Source: Acidobacteriota bacterium (GTDB lineage Bacteria; Acidobacteriota; UBA4820; DSQY01). Taken from it: 41,641 nt of DNA. How positions within the stretch are numbered: the first letter of the stretch is position 1; each line of letters begins with the position of its first letter. Positions 261 through 23,604 of the stretch are shown here, piece after piece. The stretch lies in NCBI GenBank assembly GCA_021778515.1, contig JAJYCJ010000019.1, positions 1-41,641 of the forward strand, in the 5' to 3' direction. The position numbers were made by a program, and so were the translations under genes. Below the pieces are notes generated by a model. The model was not told the DNA's origin. It ran no database searches and worked only from the letters and a program-made list of their open reading frames with translations.

Positions 261-2366
261 TCAGCCCTGGCCCTTGGCCGCCGCCGTCAGCTCTTGGACG
301 ACGCGGTCCGCGCCGTAGAGCTTGGTGAGCGCTTCCATGATAGCTGGGGTGTCCACCGCCACGCAGCGGGCCACCTTCTCGGAGTAGACGAAGGTGTTGG
401 GGTTGCTCTGCGGGTTGCCGTCGAAGACCAGGCCCACGAGCTTGCCCTCCTTGTCCACGATGGGGCTCCCCGAGTTGCCGCCCGTGATGTCGGCGGTGCA
501 GACGAAGTCCATGGGGGTCTTGAGGTCGAGCTGGTCTCGCTTGGCCTCCTCCATCTTGCTCAGCTGGAAGTCGCCCTTGTTGTCGAAGGAGTAGGCGCGG
601 TCATAGAGGCCGTAGAAGGTGGTCTTGTAGGGCACCTCGCTGGTGTCGAAGGAGTAGCCCTTGACGGTGCCGAAGGCCAGGCGGAGGGTGCCCGTGGCGT
701 CGGGGTAGACCTTGTCGCCGTAGACCGCGAACTGGGCCTTGGCGATCTCCGTGAGGGCCGGCTGGACCACCGCCTCCACGTTGTCCTTGACGGCCTTGTG
801 GACTCTACGGAGGGTCGGGTCCATGAGGCGGACGAAGGCGATGAGCGGGTCCTTGCAGCTCTTCACGGCAGCCCCATCGTTCTTGAGGAGGGAGGCGCGG
901 TAGGCGGCGTCGCCCAGGCGCGTGCCCTGGACGGCCTCGGCGGCGCGCTGCTCGGGGGTCTTGCCCTGGAGGAGAGACTTCACGAAGGGGTCCCCGGGGC
1001 CGAGCTGGTCCCTCAGGGTGGTCAGCTCGTAGGCCACGACGGCCTGGCTCATTCCCTTGTAGTAGGGCCGCGGCGCCTCGAGGCGCCTCAGGAGGCCCGG
1101 AATCTGGGAGTCGTGGTAGCCGTCCAGCCGCTCGCCGTCCGGCTTCTTGACCTCCTCGGCGTAGCGCAGAATATTCATGGCCGTGCCCGTCAGGCCGTAG
1201 CCGTCGAAGACCTGGCCCTCGTAGGTGATCTCCTTGAAGTGGGCGCGCTCCCAGGCCACCGCATTCTCGATCTGTTTCCAGGCGTCGGCGTAGTGCCGGA
1301 GCTTCGGGTCTTTCTCCACCGCCGCACGCAGGGCCTTCTCCTGGCTGGCCTTCTCGGCCATCAGCGCGGGGTCCTTGAGCCCGTCGTACTCGCCCGTTAT
1401 GGCCTTGATGGCGTTGTGGATGAAGAAGAGCATGGACTGCGCTTCCTGCGCCTGCTCGGGCCCCTTCTTGCCGTAGGCCGTGAGGGCCGCGTCCAGGCCC
1501 GCGAGCTGGGACAGCATGGCGGGGTAGCTGTCGTCGCGGAAGTAGGCGAGCTGGGCGAGGGTGTCCAGGCGGTCCGTGCGGCCGGGGTGGCCCGAAACGA
1601 AGATGGGCATGCCGTCGGTCACGCCCGCGGGATCGAACTGGAGGTAATCGGGCGTGTGGGCTGGCTTGCCGTTCTCGTACACGCGGAGGAAGCTGAAGTC
1701 GATGTCGTAGCGCGGATAGTAGAAGTTGTCCGCGTCGCCGCCGAAGTAGGCCGCCATCTCCTCGGGGGCCATCACCACGCGCACGTCCGTGTACTCCTTG
1801 TAGCGGTAGAGCATGTAGCGCGCCCCGCCGTAGAGGGGGACCACCTTGCCGTGGAGGCCGGTTTTCGCGAGGCACTCCTTCTCGATCCGGGCCATCTCCG
1901 CGTCGCGCGCCTGCTGGGCCTGGGCGGGCGTGGCGCCCGGTTTGACGGCCGCGTCCACCTCGGGCGTGACCTCCTGCATGGACACCAGCACCTCGATCAT
2001 GGCGCCGGGGACCTTCATCTCGTCGGCCAGGGTCTTGGCGTAGAAGCCGTTCTCCACGTAGTTGTGCTGAGGGGTGGAGAGCTGCTGGAGGTACATGCGG
2101 GCCACGTGGTGGTTGGTGAGGATCAGCCCGTCGGGCGACACGAAGGAGCCGCTGCCCCCGCCGATGCCGGTGGAGGAGAGGCGGAGGTGGTCCAGCCACG
2201 CCTGGGTCGGCGTGAAGCCGAACCGCTTCTGGATGAGCTGGACGGGGGGATGTTCGTAGGTCCACATTCCCTCGTCGGCCCTGATCGCCGTGGAGAGGCC
2301 CAGCACGGATGCGGCGGCCAGCGCCAGAACAGAAAGGGTTCTCAGGAGAGTCCTCGGGTGGGTCAT
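261..2366 (-). CDS. S46 family dipeptidyl-peptidase (DPP7-like), secreted
   Basis: This 701-residue protein begins with a signal peptide that probably ends near residue 30 (...STAIRA). The chymotrypsin-fold S46 triad can be placed at His87 in TNHHVA, Asp223 in YDIDFSFLR and Ser632 in GGNSGSP. S46 enzymes remove dipeptides from peptide N-termini in the periplasm or at the cell surface. After the serine the protein reads VFDGN: in characterised members Gly here goes with DPP7-type hydrophobic P1 preference and Arg with DPP11-type acidic preference, so DPP7-like specificity is inferred. The ATG is preceded by GAGGAGG at good spacing. Length is typical of the family. A paralogue lies at 31228-33360. 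Confidence 0.95.
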   Translation of the reverse strand: MTHPRTLLRTLSVLALAAASVLGLSTAIRADEGMWTYEHPPVQLIQKRFGFTPTQAWLDHLRLSSTGIGGGSGSFVSPDGLILTNHHVARMYLQQLSTPQHNYVENGFYAKTLADEMKVPGAMIEVLVSMQEVTPEVDAAVKPGATPAQAQQARDAEMARIEKECLAKTGLHGKVVPLYGGARYMLYRYKEYTDVRVVMAPEEMAAYFGGDADNFYYPRYDIDFSFLRVYENGKPAHTPDYLQFDPAGVTDGMPIFVSGHPGRTDRLDTLAQLAYFRDDSYPAMLSQLAGLDAALTAYGKKGPEQAQEAQSMLFFIHNAIKAITGEYDGLKDPALMAEKASQEKALRAAVEKDPKLRHYADAWKQIENAVAWERAHFKEITYEGQVFDGYGLTGTAMNILRYAEEVKKPDGERLDGYHDSQIPGLLRRLEAPRPYYKGMSQAVVAYELTTLRDQLGPGDPFVKSLLQGKTPEQRAAEAVQGTRLGDAAYRASLLKNDGAAVKSCKDPLIAFVRLMDPTLRRVHKAVKDNVEAVVQPALTEIAKAQFAVYGDKVYPDATGTLRLAFGTVKGYSFDTSEVPYKTTFYGLYDRAYSFDNKGDFQLSKMEEAKRDQLDLKTPMDFVCTADITGGNSGSPIVDKEGKLVGLVFDGNPQSNPNTFVYSEKVARCVAVDTPAIMEALTKLYGADRVVQELTAAAKGQG

Positions 2367-5263: not shown

Positions 5264-5280
5264 TTGGCACTTGGATTGCA
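5264..5280 (+). promoter_or_regulatory. Sigma-54 (RpoN) type promoter
   Basis: TTGGCACTTGGATTGCA matches YTGGCAC-N5-TTGCW at every constrained position, with GG at 5266-5267 (-24) and GC at 5278-5279 (-12). The predicted start is near 5291. No gene begins for 620 bases, so it would transcribe the structured leader and then the secreted protein at 6035. Activation would need an enhancer-binding protein; none is encoded in the window. Confidence 0.7.
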
Positions 5281-5576
5281 CCTATTGAAACAGAAATTCG
5301 TGAAGGTTGGCCCCCAGCGTGCTCCCGTTTTGGGAAGTGGAGTGCGCGGGTCGCAAAATGACGGTCACCGGATGGCGCTCCGTCGCGGTTGTGTCGTCTC
5401 CCAGCCTAGGCGTGAGGCCCCCCGGGAGGACATGGGCAGAGGAGGGTTGTACGGTCCGTCCACGCTCTTCCTGAGGCGGGAGTGTTCGTACGCCCCCGGG
5501 AGAATGCAGGACTGCCTGGCCGTTTCGGGGGCCGGAACGGCCGGGAATCACCGACAGCCGAGGTGCTGATGTTGGG

Positions 5577-5684
5577 GAACGCCCGGAGGCTGTGATCCGG
5601 GGGATGCAAGTGGTCACCTTGCCCCCGGGGAGCCAGTGGTGAAACCGGCCGGCGCGCGATGAGTGGCGCCGGCCTTGGTGTCTA
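5577..5684 (+). ncRNA. Structured leader element, copy 1
   Basis: This ~108-nt element recurs at 5789-5897. Visible helices are CCGGGGG with CCCCCGG enclosing an inner hairpin around GGTCACC; GCC-(AGT)-GGT-GAA-ACC-GGC; and a perfect 9-bp stem GGCCGGCGC with GCGCCGGCC. A separate strong hairpin at 5515-5545 (GGCCGTT with AACGGCC) precedes it, and another (AAGGA-A-GGG with CCC-TCCTT) lies between the copies near 5711-5731. I do not recognise a known riboswitch class. The call as RNA is an inference from structure and duplication. Confidence 0.5.
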
Positions 5685-5788
5685 TACGCTGGAAAGACCC
5701 GCGCGGCCTCAAGGAAGGGGAGCCCTCCTTATCCGCCTTGGCTGCGAGCGGGGTTGGGCGGAGTCGAGATTACAGGGTGTGGTGCCAA

Positions 5789-5897
5789 GAACGCCCGGAG
5801 GCTGTGATCCGGGGGATGCGGGTGGTCACCTTTTCCCCCGGGGAGCCAGTGGTGAAACCGGCCGGCGCGCGACGAGCGGCGTCGGCCTTGGTGTCTA
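5789..5897 (+). ncRNA. Structured leader element, copy 2
   Basis: This is a direct repeat of 5577-5684 at 212-base spacing, with one inserted base. Differences are few: in the 9-bp stem one change turns a G-C pair into G-U, keeping the helix, and two loop changes are C/T transitions. Its end is followed within 3 bases by AGGAGGT (5901-5907), as in riboswitches that control ribosome access. Confidence 0.5.
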
Positions 5898-5910
5898 GAT
5901 AGGAGGTGCG

Positions 5911-5928
5911 ATGAAAGAACAACGGTGA
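5911..5928 (+). CDS. Putative 5-residue leader peptide (MKEQR)
   Basis: ATG AAA GAA CAA CGG TGA follows a near-ideal AGGAGGTGCG ribosome site placed immediately after the second structured element. No longer frame uses this ribosome site. The secreted-protein gene starts 107 bases later with its own site. This could be a regulatory upstream ORF coupling leader structure to downstream translation; it could also be fortuitous. Confidence 0.35.
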   Translation: MKEQR

Positions 5929-6034
5929 TGATGGGTCGGTCCTGTGGCGGTTTTCAAGTCAGTAAAGAAGACGCAATGCCGGCCGAGCGGACCACGGCGG
6001 TTTGCGCAGTTCGTTGGCTGGCGGGGAGAAGACA

Positions 6035-7126
6035 ATGATGTCACCAAGGCTCATGAGGGCTTGTCCTCGTTTCGGCTCGGTTCTGTTGGCGATCTTGGCA
6101 GTCCTGCTCTTTGGTGCACCGGCCCTGGCCCAGGGCTACGGAGGAGGTTCTGGTGGCAGCGGCGGCGGTCCCGGCGGCGGTGGCGAGGTCGAGACGACGG
6201 GCAACAACCTCTCGTACCCGGTCGTGTTGGTCGGCAGTGCCACGCTGTCGCTGCGTGAGCCCCCGGTCGAGCTGGATTACAGCATGATGGGGTACTACTG
6301 GTACGGATGGATCGATCCGATGGGGGTCCAGGTGGCCTGCGATCCCGGCGTTCTGCCGTGTCCGCCCCCCGATGTGGACCCCTCCGCGGTCTCGCGCATC
6401 TACCTGCAGAAGGACGCCTACAGCGTCTGGCAGGGCGCGCACATCCAGTCGGCCGATGCGGTTGCAGCGGCCTACTTCGACTGGAGCGACAACCTCGAAA
6501 GCACCGTCTGGAGCGCCAGCTCGGTGGTCCGCGTGGAGACGGTGCCCTTCGCCTCCACGCCGGGAGCCCTGGGCTTCCAGATGTGGTGGGCGAGTGGAAA
6601 GGGTGTGGACGAGGTGTGGGGCGCGCGCGCCACGAACGCCGACCCCACGGGGCCGACCGACTACCCCTTCTCGCCGAACTACGCCACCATCTACTCGACC
6701 GACGCCTGGGTGACGCTGCAGAAGCTGGAGGCCGGCGGCGGCAGCCAGAGCGCACCGCCCGACACCAGCGGCTACGCCTGGAACGCGGCTGCCCACAAGT
6801 GGGATAACGTGGCGGCACAAACGGTCAGCATCGTGCCCGGCACCGCCGAGATCAACGTGGGCGGGAAGGCGATCTACGGCTACAACTGGAACCTCAAACG
6901 GCAGGTGATGAGCGCCAGCGAGGCCAAGGATGGCTGGTGGCGGCTGACCTTTTCAACCAGCGCCAACAGCATCCTCATCGGGGCGGACACGGTGCTGACG
7001 CCGCCCCCCCCCGCCGTCCCACCCGCCGACCTCATGTTCACGGCCAAGGTTGACCCCGTCAACAACCTGACCTACATCGACATCTTCATCAAGTCCGCCA
7101 AGGGAGGCGGAGGCAGCAAGCGCTGA
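6035..7126 (+). CDS. Secreted glycine-rich-headed protein of unknown function
   Basis: The 363-residue product has a clear signal peptide (SVLLAILAVLLFGAPALAQG), then a Gly-rich linker of about 20 residues, then a tryptophan/tyrosine-rich, probably beta-rich body with segments such as YSMMGYYWYGWIDP and YGYNWNLKRQ. The end is Gly/Lys/Arg-rich (KGGGGSKR). I recognise no catalytic motif or family. Export to the periplasm or beyond is the only supported inference. The ATG at 6035 follows GGGGAG; a second ATG is adjacent. It is the sole evident gene between the sigma-54-type promoter at 5264 and the terminator at 7149. Confidence 0.8.
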   Translation: MMSPRLMRACPRFGSVLLAILAVLLFGAPALAQGYGGGSGGSGGGPGGGGEVETTGNNLSYPVVLVGSATLSLREPPVELDYSMMGYYWYGWIDPMGVQVACDPGVLPCPPPDVDPSAVSRIYLQKDAYSVWQGAHIQSADAVAAAYFDWSDNLESTVWSASSVVRVETVPFASTPGALGFQMWWASGKGVDEVWGARATNADPTGPTDYPFSPNYATIYSTDAWVTLQKLEAGGGSQSAPPDTSGYAWNAAAHKWDNVAAQTVSIVPGTAEINVGGKAIYGYNWNLKRQVMSASEAKDGWWRLTFSTSANSILIGADTVLTPPPPAVPPADLMFTAKVDPVNNLTYIDIFIKSAKGGGGSKR

Positions 7127-7148
7127 CCGAGGGCGCACGGTGCGTGAA

Positions 7149-7184
7149 GGGCCCGGCCCTCGAGGGGGCCGGGCCCTTCTGTTT
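7149..7184 (+). terminator. Intrinsic terminator
   Basis: A perfect 11-bp GC stem (GGGCCCGGCCC with GGGCCGGGCCC) closes a 6-base loop and is followed by TTCTGTTT. It lies 22 bases after the stop codon of the secreted protein and ends the transcription unit. Confidence 0.9.
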
Positions 7185-8907: not shown

Positions 8908-9957
8908 ATGTCGCGCATAGAGTCCATCGCCACCGATCTTCCTCCGAACGTCATCCCCCAGGAGCTGGCCAAGGCGGCCTTCACGGCGATGTTCTCGGGC
9001 CATCCGGAGGTCTCCAGCCTGGCCGAGCTGTTCGACCGCTGCGGGGTGGAGCAGCGGCACTTCTCCTTTCCGCCCGACTACTACCTCGCGGACAAGAGCT
9101 TCGACGAGCGGAACCGGGACTACATCGCCGGGGCGAGAGATCTCGCCGAAAGGGCCGCCAGGGAGTGCCTGCGGGAGGCGGGAGTGGAGCCGGAGCGGGT
9201 GGACCACCTGATCCTCGTGACCACCACGGGACTAGCCACGCCGAGCCTGGACGCGCTCCTCGTGCCCCGCCTGGGCCTCCGTCCCGACGTGCGCCGCTGG
9301 CCGCTGTTCGGCCTGGGGTGCGCCGGCGGGGCCGGCGCGCTCGTGCGGGCGGAGGAGATCCTGCGGGGGGGCACGGATGGATTGGCGCTGGTGATCTCGG
9401 TGGAGCTCTGCGGGCAGTCCTTCACGCGCCGGGCCAACGACCCCGTGGACGCGGTGGGCGGGGCGCTCTTCGGCGACGGCGCGGTGGCCCTCCTCGTGTC
9501 GTCGTCCGAGGCCTCGCGGGGCGGGCCTTCCATCGTGGCACGGCGAAGCGTCCTGTTTGAAAACTCGGAACAGATCATGGGCTGGAGGTTCACCTCCGAC
9601 GGTATGCGCCTGGTCCTTTCCCGGGAGATCACGGATCTGCTGAAGCGCCGCTTCAGGCCGGTGGTGCAGGAGTTCCTCGCCTCCGCCGGGATGACGCTCC
9701 GGGACATCACGTACTGGGTCCTGCACCCGGGCGGCCGCCGCATCGTCGAGGCCTACCAGCAGGCGCTCGACTGTCCCGCCGAGACGCTCGCGTGGGCGCG
9801 GAATTCTCTCGCCCGGGTCGGCAACCTCTCCAGCGCCTCGGTCCTCTTCGTCCTGGCGGACGTCTTCCACGAGGCCCGGCCCAGGAGCGGGGAGAAGGCC
9901 CTCGTCGCCGCGCCCGGGCCGGGCTTCGGGATGGAGATGCTGGTGCTGGAGTGGTGA
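8908..9957 (+). CDS. Type III polyketide synthase (chalcone/stilbene synthase family)
   Basis: The 349-residue product carries the full Cys-His-Asn triad of type III synthases: Cys138 in FGLGCAGGAG, His273 in VLHPGGRR and Asn306 in RVGNLSSAS, with the closing GPGFGMEM motif. These homodimeric enzymes extend an acyl-CoA starter with malonyl-CoA without an acyl carrier protein, giving alkylpyrones, alkylresorcinols or similar products. The ATG follows CAGGAGG. Its stop overlaps the next ATG by one base (TGATG), so translation of the oxidoreductase is probably coupled. The starter unit and product cannot be read from sequence. Confidence 0.95.
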   Translation: MSRIESIATDLPPNVIPQELAKAAFTAMFSGHPEVSSLAELFDRCGVEQRHFSFPPDYYLADKSFDERNRDYIAGARDLAERAARECLREAGVEPERVDHLILVTTTGLATPSLDALLVPRLGLRPDVRRWPLFGLGCAGGAGALVRAEEILRGGTDGLALVISVELCGQSFTRRANDPVDAVGGALFGDGAVALLVSSSEASRGGPSIVARRSVLFENSEQIMGWRFTSDGMRLVLSREITDLLKRRFRPVVQEFLASAGMTLRDITYWVLHPGGRRIVEAYQQALDCPAETLAWARNSLARVGNLSSASVLFVLADVFHEARPRSGEKALVAAPGPGFGMEMLVLEW

Positions 9958-11036
9958 TGTTCGACGCGGTGGTGGTCGGCGGCGGTGTGGCGGGTTCGGT
10001 GGCGGCCCGCGAGCTGGGCCTGCGAGGCCTCAGGGTCGCCCTGCTCGAGAAGAGCCGGCACCCCCGCCCGAAGCCCTGCGGCGAAGGTCTCCTGCCGCAC
10101 GGGGTCGCCGGGTTGAGGTCGCTCGGCCTGGACTTCCCGGGCGTGCCCGTGAAGGGTCTTCGGTACGTCTCACCGTGCGGCGTCACCGCTCAGGCGGATT
10201 TCCCCTCGGGCGAGGGGATGGTCGTGCGCAGGGAGAGGTTCGACGCCTACCTCTTTGAAGCCGCGGCGGGCACCCCCAACGTGGAGACCTTTCCGGAAAC
10301 CCCCTACGACGCCGCGCGGTGGAAGGCGCGCTGGCTGGTCGGCGCCGACGGGCTGAAATCGCAGTTCCACCGGCAGCGCGATTTCCGCGTGAGGACGCCC
10401 CGCTTGCACCGCGTCGGCCTGAGCACGCACGTGCGGGGGCTCCAGGTGGACCGCGAGCGGGTCGAGGTGCTCTTCCACCTGGGGGGCGAGGTCTATCTCG
10501 CGCCCTCGGACGACGGAGAGGCGCTCGTGGCCTGCCTCTACCGGAAGGATGCCCTGCCCGCCGAGCCCACCAACGAGCTGCGCGTGCTTCACACCCTCCG
10601 ATCCCTGAAGGCGCTGCGCGGTCGGGTGGGCTCCATCGCCTTCACCACGCCCGTTCTGGGCGCGGGGCCCCTCGGGCTGTCCCTGGGCCGGCTGGCGGCC
10701 GACGACGTGGTGCTGATCGGAGACGCGGCCGGCGCTCCCGACCCGGTCACGGGAGAGGGCATGTCCCTCGCCATCCTGTCCGCAGTTCCTTTGGCCGAGG
10801 CGCTGGCGTCGGGCCGGCCCGAGGCGTACGAAAAGCAACGCCGCCGACTCGCCTCCAACGCCGCCTGGCTGTCGGGTTGGATCCTCAAGGCGTCGCGCCG
10901 CCCCGCCCTCGCGGACCGGGTGATCGGAGCTCTGGATGAGCACCCCTCGCTCTTCGCGAAGCTGATGGGGATCGCGGTCGGGGCGGCCTCGGTGCGGGAC
11001 CTGACCCTCGTCGACCTCACGAGGCTCGCCCTATGA
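9957..11036 (+). CDS. FAD-dependent oxidoreductase (geranylgeranyl reductase/monooxygenase-like)
   Basis: The 359-residue product opens with the dinucleotide-binding fold FDAVVVGGGVAGSVAARE, has the KPCGEGLLP segment typical of the geranylgeranyl-reductase-like branch, and contains the FAD-binding GD motif in VLIGDAAGAPDPVTGEGM. The start is set by the overlap with the polyketide synthase stop. Its place between a type III synthase and a methyltransferase suggests hydroxylation or reduction of the polyketide. The gene ends in a 4-base ATGA overlap with the methyltransferase. Confidence 0.88.
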   Translation: MFDAVVVGGGVAGSVAARELGLRGLRVALLEKSRHPRPKPCGEGLLPHGVAGLRSLGLDFPGVPVKGLRYVSPCGVTAQADFPSGEGMVVRRERFDAYLFEAAAGTPNVETFPETPYDAARWKARWLVGADGLKSQFHRQRDFRVRTPRLHRVGLSTHVRGLQVDRERVEVLFHLGGEVYLAPSDDGEALVACLYRKDALPAEPTNELRVLHTLRSLKALRGRVGSIAFTTPVLGAGPLGLSLGRLAADDVVLIGDAAGAPDPVTGEGMSLAILSAVPLAEALASGRPEAYEKQRRRLASNAAWLSGWILKASRRPALADRVIGALDEHPSLFAKLMGIAVGAASVRDLTLVDLTRLAL

Positions 11037-11692
11037 GGACGCGCTCGACGCGGCGCGAAATGCTGGACGACTACACGCCCCCGCCCGAGGAGTTGGCCAA
11101 GGTGGCTCGCTACCTCGCGTTCGTCAACCGGTGGCTTGGCGGCACGCTCGCCGTGGCGTCCCATCTGCGGTGCGTGGACGATCGCGCCACCGTGCTGGAC
11201 GTGGGCGCGGGCGCGGGAGACCTGGCGCGGGACCTCGCGCGGCGCCGGCCGAACCTTCGGCCTATGGTGCTCGACGCCTCGCGCGCCATGCTCTCGTTCG
11301 CGACGGGCCTGCCGCGGATCATCGGGGACGGGCGCAGCCTTCCCTTCGGTGACCGGAGCGTGGACTTCGTCGTCGCCACGCATTTCTTCCACCACCTGAC
11401 GGACGAAGAGGCCGTCGCGACCCTTCGCGAGTTCGACCGGGTCGCGAGGCGCGGCATCATCGTGAACGACCTCATCCGCAGCAGGACTGCGCTCTTCTGG
11501 ATCCGCCTCTTCACCCTCTTCGCGAACCGCTACGTGAGGGTGGACGGCCCCCTGTCCGTCCGCCGCGGCTTCACCATCGTCGAGGCCCGGACCCTGGCGG
11601 AGCGGGCCGGCCTGCCGTGGCTCCGCGTTCAGACCCATTTCGGCTACCGATTCACCCTCGCGGGCGAGCGACCGCGAAGAGCAAGCGACTGA
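11033..11692 (+). CDS. Class I SAM-dependent methyltransferase
   Basis: The 219-residue product has motif I VLDVGAGAGDLA near residues 54-65, an acidic-loop equivalent (MVLDAS), and DGRSLPFGDRSVDFVVATHFFHHL, the UbiE/COQ5-like motif region. It is the third gene of the coupled operon and overlaps the oxidoreductase by 4 bases. Methylation of a phenolic or pyrone product is inferred from context. No hairpin terminator was found in the following ~70 bases. Confidence 0.9.
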   Translation: MRTRSTRREMLDDYTPPPEELAKVARYLAFVNRWLGGTLAVASHLRCVDDRATVLDVGAGAGDLARDLARRRPNLRPMVLDASRAMLSFATGLPRIIGDGRSLPFGDRSVDFVVATHFFHHLTDEEAVATLREFDRVARRGIIVNDLIRSRTALFWIRLFTLFANRYVRVDGPLSVRRGFTIVEARTLAERAGLPWLRVQTHFGYRFTLAGERPRRASD

Positions 11693-12022: not shown

Positions 12023-12459
12023 GTCGGGTCGATCCTCGGCGCGGTGGCCTCCCACGCCAGACGTACGGATTCCCTCGACGAATGCCGGGGGAAAAGACCC
12101 ACATTGCGCGGCGACGGGCATTGGCATATATTCAACCCAATCTCACCTTCGATCGGCTGGGCTTGCATCGCGCACGTCGACTCCAATTGGGGATGAGAGA
12201 AAGACGGCGACCCGCGGGGGGGCGCGGTCTGGTGGTAAGGTCCCCGGGATTCTTCGAGGACATCCGCTCCCCGCCTTCCTCTCCTCCACTTCCGCCCAGC
12301 CCAGCACGGAGTCTTGAGGCGGGAAGGGGTACCTGTAAAACCTGGATCACCAGCGGACCGAGGCGAAAGCGTCGCCGGGCGCGGGGCCGTGCGCCAAGCC
12401 CGCGAAGAAGTGTCATCGGTGATCGCGGGGTCGCTTGCCGCCTTTACAAGGAGGGTGCC

Positions 12460-14154
12460 ATGAGGAGAGGTGGGATCGCCGTCATTCTGCTGGTGTGGGC
12501 CGCGGCATTTCAGGTGGGCCTGTCGGCGCAGGTCCCCGGGAATGTATGGTCGTGGGGCGACAACCAGTACGGCCAGCTTGGGAACGGGACGACGACCAGC
12601 AGCAACGTCCCAATCGAGACGTCCGGAGCCGGCCAGACCATCGCCGTTGCGGCCGGAGGCTTGCACAGCCTCGCGCTGCAAAGCGACGGCACGGTCCTGG
12701 CCTGGGGAAACAACGACAACGGCCAGCTCGGAGACGGGACAAACACTGACCGCAGCCTTCCCGTGCAGGTCATCGGCCTGACGGGGATAACGGCCGTGGC
12801 TGGCGCGGACGAGAACTTCAGTCTGGCTCTGAGGAACGACGGGACCGTCTGGGCGTGGGGCGAAAACTCCTACGGCCAGCTCGGAAACGGTTCGAGCGGC
12901 AACGGGGCCGACAGGAACGTGCCCGTCCAGGTGACGGGCCTCACGGGCGCAATCGCCATCGCCGCTGACTATCGCCACTCCCTTGCGGTCAGGAACGATG
13001 GGACGGTCTGGGCATGGGGGTCCAACGACAGCGGCCAGCTGGGAGACGGGACCCACACGGACAGGGCCACCCCGGTTCAGGTCTCGGGTTTGGCGGGCGT
13101 GGTCGCCGTCGCGGCCGGGAAATATTACTGCCTGGCCCTCAGGAACGATGGGACGGTTTGGGCCTGGGGGAACAACGGGTACGGTCAGCTGGGGGACGGA
13201 ACGACCACCAATCGCGATACGCCGGTCCAGGTGTCGGGCCTCTCGGGCGTCGTCGCCGTGGCCGCGGGCCTCTACCACTCCCTCGCCCTCACGAGCGAGG
13301 GCACGGTGTGGGCCTGGGGAGACAATACTTACGGAAACCTGGGCATAGGCACGAGCGGGTACTCGACCAGCACCGACGTCGCCGTCGCGGTGTCTCTGCC
13401 TCAAGGCGCGGTCTTCCACTCCATCGCCGGAGGAGGATGGCACTCGCTCGCCATCCAGGACGATGGCACCCTCTGGATCTGGGGGTTGAACTCGTTCGGC
13501 CAACTCGGGGACGGGACAACCACCGACAGCTCTCTCCCAGAGCAGTTTCAGGCCACCGGAGCCATATCCGCCATCGCAGGCGGCCGCTACCACTCTCTGG
13601 CGGTGCTGTCCCTCTCCTCATGTCCGGCCATCGCCTTGAGCCCGGCGAGCCTTCCCGACGGTGCGCCGGGTTCCGGCTACCAGCAGACCATCTCCGCGAG
13701 CGGAGGGACTGGACCCTACTCCTATGCGGTGACTTCGGGAGTTTTGCCGCCCGGCCTTTCTCTGTCGGCGGGCGGCGTCCTCTCGGGCACGCCCTCGGCG
13801 GACGGGACCTACCCGTTCACGGTGACCGCCACTGACGCCTCCGGGTGCACGGGCAGCATGGGCTACAGCGTTGCCGTTACCAGCACCAACGTGGTGCCCC
13901 CGGCGGTCACCGCCGGGATGAAGCTGGGCAGCCCCTTCCGGATCGTTTTCCAAGGCAGCAACCTCCAGAACGGCATCGTCGTCTACATCAACTACAGCAC
14001 CGTCCCGTGGTACCCGATGGTGTGGAAAGGCACGAGCAAGATCGTCCTCAAGGGAGGAGCGTCCCTCAAGGCGGCGGTGCCGAAGGGCGTGGTCACCCTG
14101 TTCACATTCGTCAATCCCGACGGAGGCGTTCTCAGCGGAACCTGGTACTGGTAG
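12460..14154 (+). CDS. Secreted RCC1-repeat beta-propeller protein with Ig-like domain
   Basis: The 564-residue product has a signal peptide, then seven RCC1-type repeats of about 50 residues, each with a version of TVWAWGxNxxGQLGDGT, which is the number needed for one closed seven-bladed propeller. An Ig-like (He_PIG-type) domain follows (GSGYQQTISASGGTGPYSY, LPPGLSLSAGGVLSGTP). A C-terminal module ending GGVLSGTWYW follows that. The start at 12460 has AAGGAGGG at ideal spacing. Extracellular binding or adhesion is plausible but not shown. The sixth repeat is the most divergent (DNTYGNLGIGTSG). It appears to be a single-gene unit. Confidence 0.88.
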   Translation: MRRGGIAVILLVWAAAFQVGLSAQVPGNVWSWGDNQYGQLGNGTTTSSNVPIETSGAGQTIAVAAGGLHSLALQSDGTVLAWGNNDNGQLGDGTNTDRSLPVQVIGLTGITAVAGADENFSLALRNDGTVWAWGENSYGQLGNGSSGNGADRNVPVQVTGLTGAIAIAADYRHSLAVRNDGTVWAWGSNDSGQLGDGTHTDRATPVQVSGLAGVVAVAAGKYYCLALRNDGTVWAWGNNGYGQLGDGTTTNRDTPVQVSGLSGVVAVAAGLYHSLALTSEGTVWAWGDNTYGNLGIGTSGYSTSTDVAVAVSLPQGAVFHSIAGGGWHSLAIQDDGTLWIWGLNSFGQLGDGTTTDSSLPEQFQATGAISAIAGGRYHSLAVLSLSSCPAIALSPASLPDGAPGSGYQQTISASGGTGPYSYAVTSGVLPPGLSLSAGGVLSGTPSADGTYPFTVTATDASGCTGSMGYSVAVTSTNVVPPAVTAGMKLGSPFRIVFQGSNLQNGIVVYINYSTVPWYPMVWKGTSKIVLKGGASLKAAVPKGVVTLFTFVNPDGGVLSGTWYW

Positions 14155-21281: not shown

Positions 21282-22922
21282 CTACCTACGGGATAGCTGC
21301 TGCAAGACGTTCTCCAGGAGGGAAACAGGCAGGACTCCAAATTCGCGTTCAATATCGTATAGCGTGGTGGTTGCGGAAATTGAGGAATCAATTCCTGAAA
21401 CCGCGACACCAACAATTCTCCCGTCTTGGCCAATAACTGGTCCTCCGCTCATACCTCTTTCGATGTGAGCTGTGACCTTTATGCGCTTAAGCCCATGCCT
21501 TTTTACCACCTGTGCAACCTTTCCCTCAGCGACAAAAGGCTGGGTGCCAGGCACGCCTGGAGGGAACCCGGCAACTAAGACGGGATCCAGGTACCTCGGG
21601 TCACTGCCTAGAGGAAGTTCAGAAATTGGCTCCAATGGGCAGCGAAGGATGGCGATATCTCGATCGGGATCCTTTGTCAAGATTTCAATGCCGAACGGAT
21701 GGATAGGATCCTGCCAACGGTGCATCATCATTGAATCAGTTAAGACATGACTGCATGTCACGACAAATGCAGAGGCGATCTCGAACCCAGTTCCCAAGTT
21801 TCCCGCATCCTCCGTCCCCAGAACCCAGAGCGCGCTAAAGAGGAGGGCGAGTCTCGGATCCAAAATGGCCGGCAAGAGCTCAGCTTTACCGGTCAATTGG
21901 TTGAGCCGATGCTGCAATGAGCTGTAAATTCTGTCTTCCCGCCCTCTAACGTGCCTTATAAAATCAATCTTTCCTTGAACAGAGGCAAGCAGCGCGGAAT
22001 TGTTGCTTACTGGTGATTCGGAAGATCCCCCTGGGGTCTGGCTGGCCGCGATTCTAGCTAGATGCGAGTTTCCAATCTCAACCTTGTGAAGCATGGCTCG
22101 GACTTCGCGAATCAGCTTTCTCCTTACGTTTATTCTCTCATTTACGACAAGTCCTGTGACTTCTTGCCTTCTGGCCTTTGAAGCAAGTCTCACTTTGGTC
22201 GGATTGATCAAGAACCCGTTTCCGGCAATTATGTTGGCCAGTTCCTCACCGACCACAACTCCCCTTTCTGCTGACGTGTCGATTCGGGCAATCGAGGCCG
22301 GTAGAGACGGGGAACGGGTAGAGATTGTGATGTCGTCCGCGTATCGGGAATAGTAACAATTGAGAGACCGAGAAAAGCTCCATAATTGATGGTCCAATTT
22401 TCTGCAAATCATGTCGGAAATAATAGGAGAAGTAGGTGCACCTTGCGGCAGGGCGTTACCATTACAGCAAATCTGAGCAAGTACGGTTGCAGCCGCAGAG
22501 GGTATTTGAAAAGGTGACGCCATGAAGAGGCCCCGAACTCGCCCGAAGTTGATAGTTGGGAAGAAATCCTGCAAGTCGATGTTCAGAACCCATCTCATGT
22601 GTACGTGGAGGCCGGCGTTGGTGATGATGCTACGGCCTCGGACAAAGCCGTGAGAAGACTTAGAGGGCTGATGGAGTGAGTATAAGATATCCTTTAGATA
22701 TGATTGGAGCCCAGCGATGGGAGGCAACGGCGCCGCAATTCGCCGGACTCCCCCGGCCCTCTTCGGGATCTCAAACTCATGGTACTTCTTCCCCTGGTCC
22801 AACCTGTAAAGTACATAGGTTAGCCGTCGCCAGCTGATTCCAAGAACTTGTGCTACTTGTGATCCAGAGCTTGCTTGAAGAAAGGCCTGCTGTAAGGGGC
22901 TTAAAGGGGAAGGGAGCGCCAT
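21282..22922 (-). CDS. Retron-type reverse transcriptase fused to a trypsin-like serine protease
   Basis: The 546-residue protein has a reverse transcriptase at about 20-330 and a protease at about 370-515. Retron hallmarks are present: NAxxH as N102-AGL-H106, D116 in LNIDLQDFFPTI, LPQGAPTSPIISD (158-170), RYADDITIS with D196-D197, and the VTG triplet at 255-257. The C-terminal part shows a complete chymotrypsin-like triad: His392 in VVTCSHVL, Asp422 in DRDIAIL and Ser492 in RGMSGGPVI. Retron RTs prime DNA synthesis on their own ncRNA and act in phage defence with an effector; the fused protease is the likely effector (inference). The gene is visibly AT-richer than its neighbours, suggesting transfer. 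No clear ribosome site precedes the ATG. Confidence 0.92.
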   Translation of the reverse strand: MALPSPLSPLQQAFLQASSGSQVAQVLGISWRRLTYVLYRLDQGKKYHEFEIPKRAGGVRRIAAPLPPIAGLQSYLKDILYSLHQPSKSSHGFVRGRSIITNAGLHVHMRWVLNIDLQDFFPTINFGRVRGLFMASPFQIPSAAATVLAQICCNGNALPQGAPTSPIISDMICRKLDHQLWSFSRSLNCYYSRYADDITISTRSPSLPASIARIDTSAERGVVVGEELANIIAGNGFLINPTKVRLASKARRQEVTGLVVNERINVRRKLIREVRAMLHKVEIGNSHLARIAASQTPGGSSESPVSNNSALLASVQGKIDFIRHVRGREDRIYSSLQHRLNQLTGKAELLPAILDPRLALLFSALWVLGTEDAGNLGTGFEIASAFVVTCSHVLTDSMMMHRWQDPIHPFGIEILTKDPDRDIAILRCPLEPISELPLGSDPRYLDPVLVAGFPPGVPGTQPFVAEGKVAQVVKRHGLKRIKVTAHIERGMSGGPVIGQDGRIVGVAVSGIDSSISATTTLYDIEREFGVLPVSLLENVLQQLSRR

Positions 22923-23486: not shown

Positions 23487-23604
23487 GCTTAACGGGCTGA
23501 TAACCCATGGACTCCGGACGATGCGGCTTGAGCAATGCGGCTGGCACCCTACTTGCTTTGGCTAGGGGTAGCCCAAGCAGAACGACGGGCGAGCTCGTTA
23601 GAGC
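23487..23604. other. 118-base element bounded by an imperfect inverted repeat
   Basis: GCTTAACGGGCT at the left pairs with AGCTCGTTAGAGC at the right with one bulge and one G-U. The ends loosely recall integron attC sites (RYYYAAC...GTTRRR), but the last base of the right core is wrong and the usual unpaired spacers are absent. Within it lie the sigma-54-type promoter at 23541 and a strong hairpin at 23554-23579 (TGCTT-t-GGCTA with TAGCC-c-AAGCA). Confidence 0.35.
23541..23557 (+). promoter_or_regulatory. Second sigma-54 type promoter
   Basis: CTGGCACCCTACTTGCT matches YTGGCAC-N5-TTGCW exactly. The predicted start near 23568 is about 52 bases before the GTG of the 80-residue ORF. The -12 region overlaps a strong hairpin. 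No adjacent enhancer-binding protein gene is seen. Confidence 0.6.

Follow-up and report, generated by a model that had tools for sequence, protein, structure and literature searches.

We argue that a secreted-protein gene from a member of the Acidobacteriota (UBA4820; DSQY01) is probably controlled by two complete c-di-GMP-II ON switches, arranged one after the other downstream of a sigma-54 promoter and ahead of the gene. The window, by which we mean the whole stretch of DNA analysed, is 41,641 nt of contig JAJYCJ010000019.1 (GCA_021778515.1). Its features are collected in Table 1. A first-pass annotation had placed a sigma-54 promoter here and likened the repeated elements ahead of the one gene to tandem riboswitches. 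This was right in outline, but it matched the repeated element to no known class, and that part does not hold. It proposed an Rfam scan, and when the whole Rfam 15 library is run against the window both copies match RF01786 (c-di-GMP-II). Each match is above the cut-off of 53.5 bits and spans the full model, positions 1-84. No other family reaches threshold in the window, with JUMPstart, Ms_AS-1 and ar14 far below. These are the only two RF01786 matches in the host genome. By sequence, then, the repeated element consists of two c-di-GMP-II riboswitch aptamers, which are predicted to bind c-di-GMP. A new riboswitch class has practically no chance of being correct. Full-length matches above threshold and a conserved pseudoknot refute it as a structural claim, and the search gave nothing in its favour.

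Table 1. Features of the leader and gene, in window coordinates
Feature	Position	Strand	Basis or remark
Inverted repeat TTTTGGC-N6-GCCAAAA	5174..5193	.	-24 element follows ~70-90 bp downstream
Sigma-54 -24/-12 promoter-like site TGGCACttggaTTGC (TGGCACTTGGATTGC)	5265..5279	+	pattern and controls; predicted 5' end ~5290
5' leader before first aptamer	5290..5575	+	~285 nt
c-di-GMP-II aptamer, copy 1	5576..5658	+	RF01786, 62.0 bits
Terminator-like hairpin, copy 1	5647..5674	+	9-bp GGCCGGCGC/GCGCCGGCC plus 2 inner pairs, GC-rich
Tail of copy 1 hairpin, TTGGTGTCTA	5675-5684	+	poor U-tract
Spacer between units	5686..5788	+	103 nt
c-di-GMP-II aptamer, copy 2, ancestral position	5788..5871	+	RF01786, 60.7 bits; same GGAGGUG follows relatives' single aptamer
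Terminator-like hairpin, copy 2	5860..5887	+	one G-C to G-U relative to copy 1
Tail of copy 2 hairpin, TTGGTGTCTA	5888-5897	+	poor U-tract
Shine-Dalgarno-like AGGAGGTG (AGGAGGUG) just 3' of copy 2 hairpin	5901..5908	+	sequence conservation
Mini-ORF MKEQR, 5 codons	5911..5928	+	sequence
Gene for 363-aa secreted-type protein	6035..7126	+	ATG start (ATGATG); hydrophobic signal, Gly-rich linker
Intrinsic terminator of gene	7146..7179	+	terminator scan

The RF01786 consensus residues GGAGGC, UGA, UGG, GGAGCCAGUGGUG and AACCGGC (Rfam alignment) are all present. Two conserved loop positions depart from the consensus, with C in place of U32 and A in place of U34, and a G-C pair of the pseudoknot is U-A here. 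One can imagine from these changes that the aptamers are a variant for another cyclic dinucleotide. We hold this to be very improbable because the canonical RF01786 model outscores the other models of its clan, the remaining strongly conserved positions are intact, and the host genome encodes 21 GGDEF domains. No c-di-GMP-I element was found elsewhere in the host genome; the control genomes gave none either.

The two copies of a ~108-nt element seen in the first reading are repeated units of 109 nt (5577-5685 and 5789-5897) with 93.6% identity. The repeat covers aptamer, hairpin and tail, and it ends there. Because several positions distinguish the two copies, they are not a simple assembly duplication. 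The few differences had been said to keep base pairing. One of them replaces G-C by G-U in the downstream hairpin and the rest fall in loops or an insertion, so the window copies by themselves say little about pairing. The spacer aligns with the region 5' of copy 1 no better than shuffled sequence does, and a common origin for these two stretches is rejected.

It is the relatives, and not the two window copies, that supply real covariation evidence. RF01786 was searched for in 60 related genomes and occurs only in the window's own family, where G002 and G005 are above the cut-off and G003 is below it at 43.1 bits. No further RF01786 came up when the search was widened to 396 genomes from across the phylum, with filtering under which weak matches are lost. 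A protein scan of GTDB contigs gave the orthologue loci L006, L007 and L008. Each has exactly one aptamer upstream of an orthologue that is 68-69% identical to the window protein. L006 and G002 are apparently the same record, as are L007 and G005. Three related acidobacterial MAGs have a single unit with the orthologue, and a fourth has a single unit with a different secreted protein. This fourth case is the G003 locus, L005, where the sub-threshold aptamer and a clear terminator precede a 327-aa secreted-type protein of no known family (358-1341, minus strand). Among the genomes searched the tandem arrangement is found in the host alone. Both riboswitch and gene are missing from G001, a genome assigned to the host's genus.

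An alignment was made of six units, the two window copies and those of L005, L006, L007 and L008, a small sample of related sequences. Across these aptamers 97.6% of pair cells in the helices and pseudoknot are paired (P1 93.9%, P2 100%, P3 97.6%). In seven pairs, pseudoknot included, both partners have changed and still pair. Both-side changes are found in P1 and P3, and P3 is altered at several pairs in L005 and L008 with its pairing retained. None of 500 shuffles reaches any of the covariation measures, and slid controls are 34-55% paired with at most one pair changed on both sides. The pseudoknot joins the P3 loop with a stretch 5' of the P1 3' strand (UCACC/GGUGA) and is 100% paired; in L008 it reads UCGCC/GGCGA, with one pair changed from A-U to G-C. 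Covariation among homologues had been suggested as a check on the element, and with these seven pairs the check does not refute it. In the same kind of run on the terminator hairpin the 5' arm barely varies across units.

In all six units the aptamer's closing stretch (CCGGCCGGCG and variants) serves a second time, as the 5' arm of the downstream hairpin. Since that arm is the P1 3' strand, aptamer and hairpin are mutually exclusive. Each aptamer carries its own hairpin and tail as a putative expression platform. When c-di-GMP is absent the P1 3' strand would join the GC-rich hairpin, which would stop RNA polymerase or help to stop it. When c-di-GMP is bound the strand would stay in P1 and transcription would proceed. 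A ligand that stabilises the aptamer would prevent the hairpin, and this is what would make each unit an ON switch. Both units would have to be read through, so the response to c-di-GMP should be steeper than with one unit. In series, two terminators that are weak on their own could have a multiplied effect. A second input, via an activator, would come from the sigma-54 promoter. The output, presumably a surface or matrix protein, would be produced at high c-di-GMP.

The weak point of this scheme is the tail. The window hairpins are very stable and are followed by UUGGUGUCUA, and they have terminator scores of -1.8 and -5.1 against +9.7 to +34.6 for the U-rich-tailed hairpins of L005-L008 (a formula of the d'Aubenton Carafa type). 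The terminator scan of the window lists neither copy's hairpin. The weak tail is common to both window copies, so it is probably older than the duplication. In unconstrained folds the hairpin takes a share of the common strand of 0.87 in window copy 2, 0.73 in L006, 0.27 in L007 and 0.10 in L008. The partition-function model contains neither ligand energy nor the pseudoknot, and only the unconstrained figures are sound. A P1-constrained fold of window copy 2 gave 0.04 for the hairpin, but the constraint named non-complementary bases and we do not rely on it. The free-state shares in L007 and L008 are low, and folding energy alone does not settle the matter.

The first reading also reported a perfect Shine-Dalgarno after copy 2. 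It is present, but it precedes a 5-codon ORF some 130 nt upstream of the main gene, which has its own GGGGAG ~8 nt 5' of its ATG. All four gene-bearing loci have an identical GGAGGUG, with mini-ORFs that start MKE. Where the window encodes MKEQR, the relatives encode MKEADG (from a TTG start) or a longer ORF beginning MKEP... The next ~125 nt to the real start are conserved only within the L006/L007 pair. By analogy with STAB-SD, a sequence resembling a Shine-Dalgarno that stabilises mRNA (Agaisse and Lereclus 1996, as cited in PMC7509114), GGAGGUG may be a ribosome-binding site with a stabilising role. In both cases a strong Shine-Dalgarno stands in the leader away from the gene start. This is a resemblance only, and here a mini-ORF follows.

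These observations bear on whether the fold is read out by termination at all. The same fold could act through Rho access, pausing, RNA decay or ribosome access at GGAGGUG. We give this a lesser chance than termination and hold it to be rather unlikely. In its favour, the U-tracts are weak in both window copies, and four genomes keep GGAGGUG and the mini-ORF 3' of the hairpin but not the stretch after them. Against it, good U-tracts occupy this position in the relatives and the duplicated unit ends before GGAGGUG. Pairing of GGAGGUG with an aptamer loop was also considered and rejected, having near-zero probability in the unconstrained fold.

GGAGGUG also polarizes the duplication. It stands directly 3' of the single unit in L006, L007 and L008 and directly 3' of copy 2, but not of copy 1, so copy 2 occupies the ancestral position. 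It might then be argued that only this second unit regulates and that the first, which could be a non-functional duplicate, has little effect. One unit suffices in the relatives, after all, and the conserved GGAGGUG follows only copy 2. Yet copy 1 retains its paired positions, pseudoknot and hairpin, and it even scores slightly above copy 2. Its surroundings have no detectable similarity to the relatives. That copy 1 was kept while its flanks were not suggests selection on both copies, and we consider regulation by the second unit alone rather unlikely, a little more so than a different readout. Two ON switches in series remain the preferred reading.

The promoter is where the window differs from its relatives. 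An exact -24/-12 promoter had been claimed, and it stands: the site has the -24 GG and -12 GC of the consensus at the correct spacing. There are 2 exact sigma-54 sites in the window where shuffling predicts 0.03. The host genome, G000, has 21 exact sites against 4 for the reversed pattern, a 5-fold excess, and it encodes RpoN. The inverted repeat upstream of the -24 element is possibly an enhancer-binding-protein site or an upstream terminator. No sigma-70 promoter was found on the plus strand of the window leader. The loci of the relatives have no sigma-54 site upstream. L006 has a sigma-70-like promoter (TTGACA-17-TACATT), and by eye so do L008 (TTGACA..TATATC) and L005 (TTGACC..TATATT). The distance from promoter to aptamer is ~290 nt in the window, L006 and L007 and ~240 nt in L008. 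The leader sequences of window and relatives are unrelated despite their similar length. Going by consensus matches alone, the most parsimonious scenario would be that the promoter changed class while the distance was kept.

After the promoter there are ~740 nt without a long gene, as the first reading said. It also saw several hairpins in this leader. The first ~285 nt give no support for them, being no more structured than shuffled sequence (z -0.5) and not conserved in relatives. The second exact sigma-54 site in the window, TGGCACCCTACTTGC at 23542-23556 (plus strand), is 79 nt before an 81-aa ORF. Several of the genomic sites are 40-90 nt 5' of plausible starts of genes whose products have signal-like N-termini. 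These positions and the enrichment of sites are why we think that sigma-54 may serve secreted proteins in this host.

The gene downstream was described as encoding an unknown secreted protein, and we agree. The N-terminus of the 363-aa product is hydrophobic; the protein matches nothing in Pfam or NCBIfam and no PDB sequence convincingly. Its AlphaFold2 model has a mean pLDDT of 37, too poor for a fold search. Distant homologues that are 32-39% identical occur in other acidobacterial families, and no Rfam element was found near them. In L012 (1495-3537, minus strand) the homologue makes up the C-terminal part of a 680-aa protein, behind three NBR1-like Ig domains. That the window protein acts at the surface or in the matrix is guesswork based on context and on what c-di-GMP does in bacteria.

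Other genes in the window can be noted in their own right. A type III polyketide synthase, an FAD-dependent oxidoreductase and a SAM methyltransferase (8908-11692, plus strand) form a putative small biosynthetic cluster. A secreted-type protein with seven RCC1 repeats and a putative Ig domain lies at 12082-14154 (plus strand). A fusion of a reverse transcriptase (YADD) and a trypsin-like protease is encoded at 21282-22922 (minus strand). Its best PADLOC match is RT-Protease_XI (E 8e-150), which makes it a candidate type XI retron-like single-gene defence.

One can take the preferred reading further. An ON switch with an eroded U-tract may have been duplicated, so that two leaky terminators would make one tight, steep switch. 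The move from sigma-70 to sigma-54 would then build an AND gate with c-di-GMP, and GGAGGUG with its mini-ORF would add a further step. We offer this fuller story tentatively, as more likely wrong than right. The locus places c-di-GMP-II riboswitches, mainly clostridial in descriptions, in one acidobacterial family. The single- and doubled-unit versions of one locus are a natural before-and-after of riboswitch duplication. The locus also ties an undescribed secreted protein family of the Acidobacteriota to c-di-GMP and, through it, probably to biofilm or life on surfaces.

The class and the tandem arrangement are both known. What is new is the acidobacterial location, this particular doubling and the unusual promoter. 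Among the open-access papers searched, none brings c-di-GMP-II riboswitches and Acidobacteria together. Class II c-di-GMP switches are transcriptional ON switches in Clostridioides difficile (PMC11477304). CD2831, CD3246 and the pilin operon of that species share with our locus the aptamer family, the predicted transcriptional ON control and surface or secreted outputs. However, those are single switches, and the window comes from another phylum, is very GC-rich, and has a far longer leader, a sigma-54 promoter and an unrelated target. Serial switches for one ligand in one leader are also found in the system of PMC4759541, but its aptamers are class I and structurally unrelated to c-di-GMP-II. 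The closest parallel is with the tandem c-di-GMP-II switches of PMC9481103, 59 doublets and 9 triplets mostly from Paraclostridium and close relatives. There too, two switches of the same class follow one another ahead of a gene whose product is putatively secreted or on the surface. For tandems of one class the expectation is pseudo-cooperativity, with a steeper and more digital response (PMC9481103). The Acidobacteria are not mentioned in the text of that paper, and the window differs from its tandems in having weak tails and in being the one doubled genome in a family of single units.
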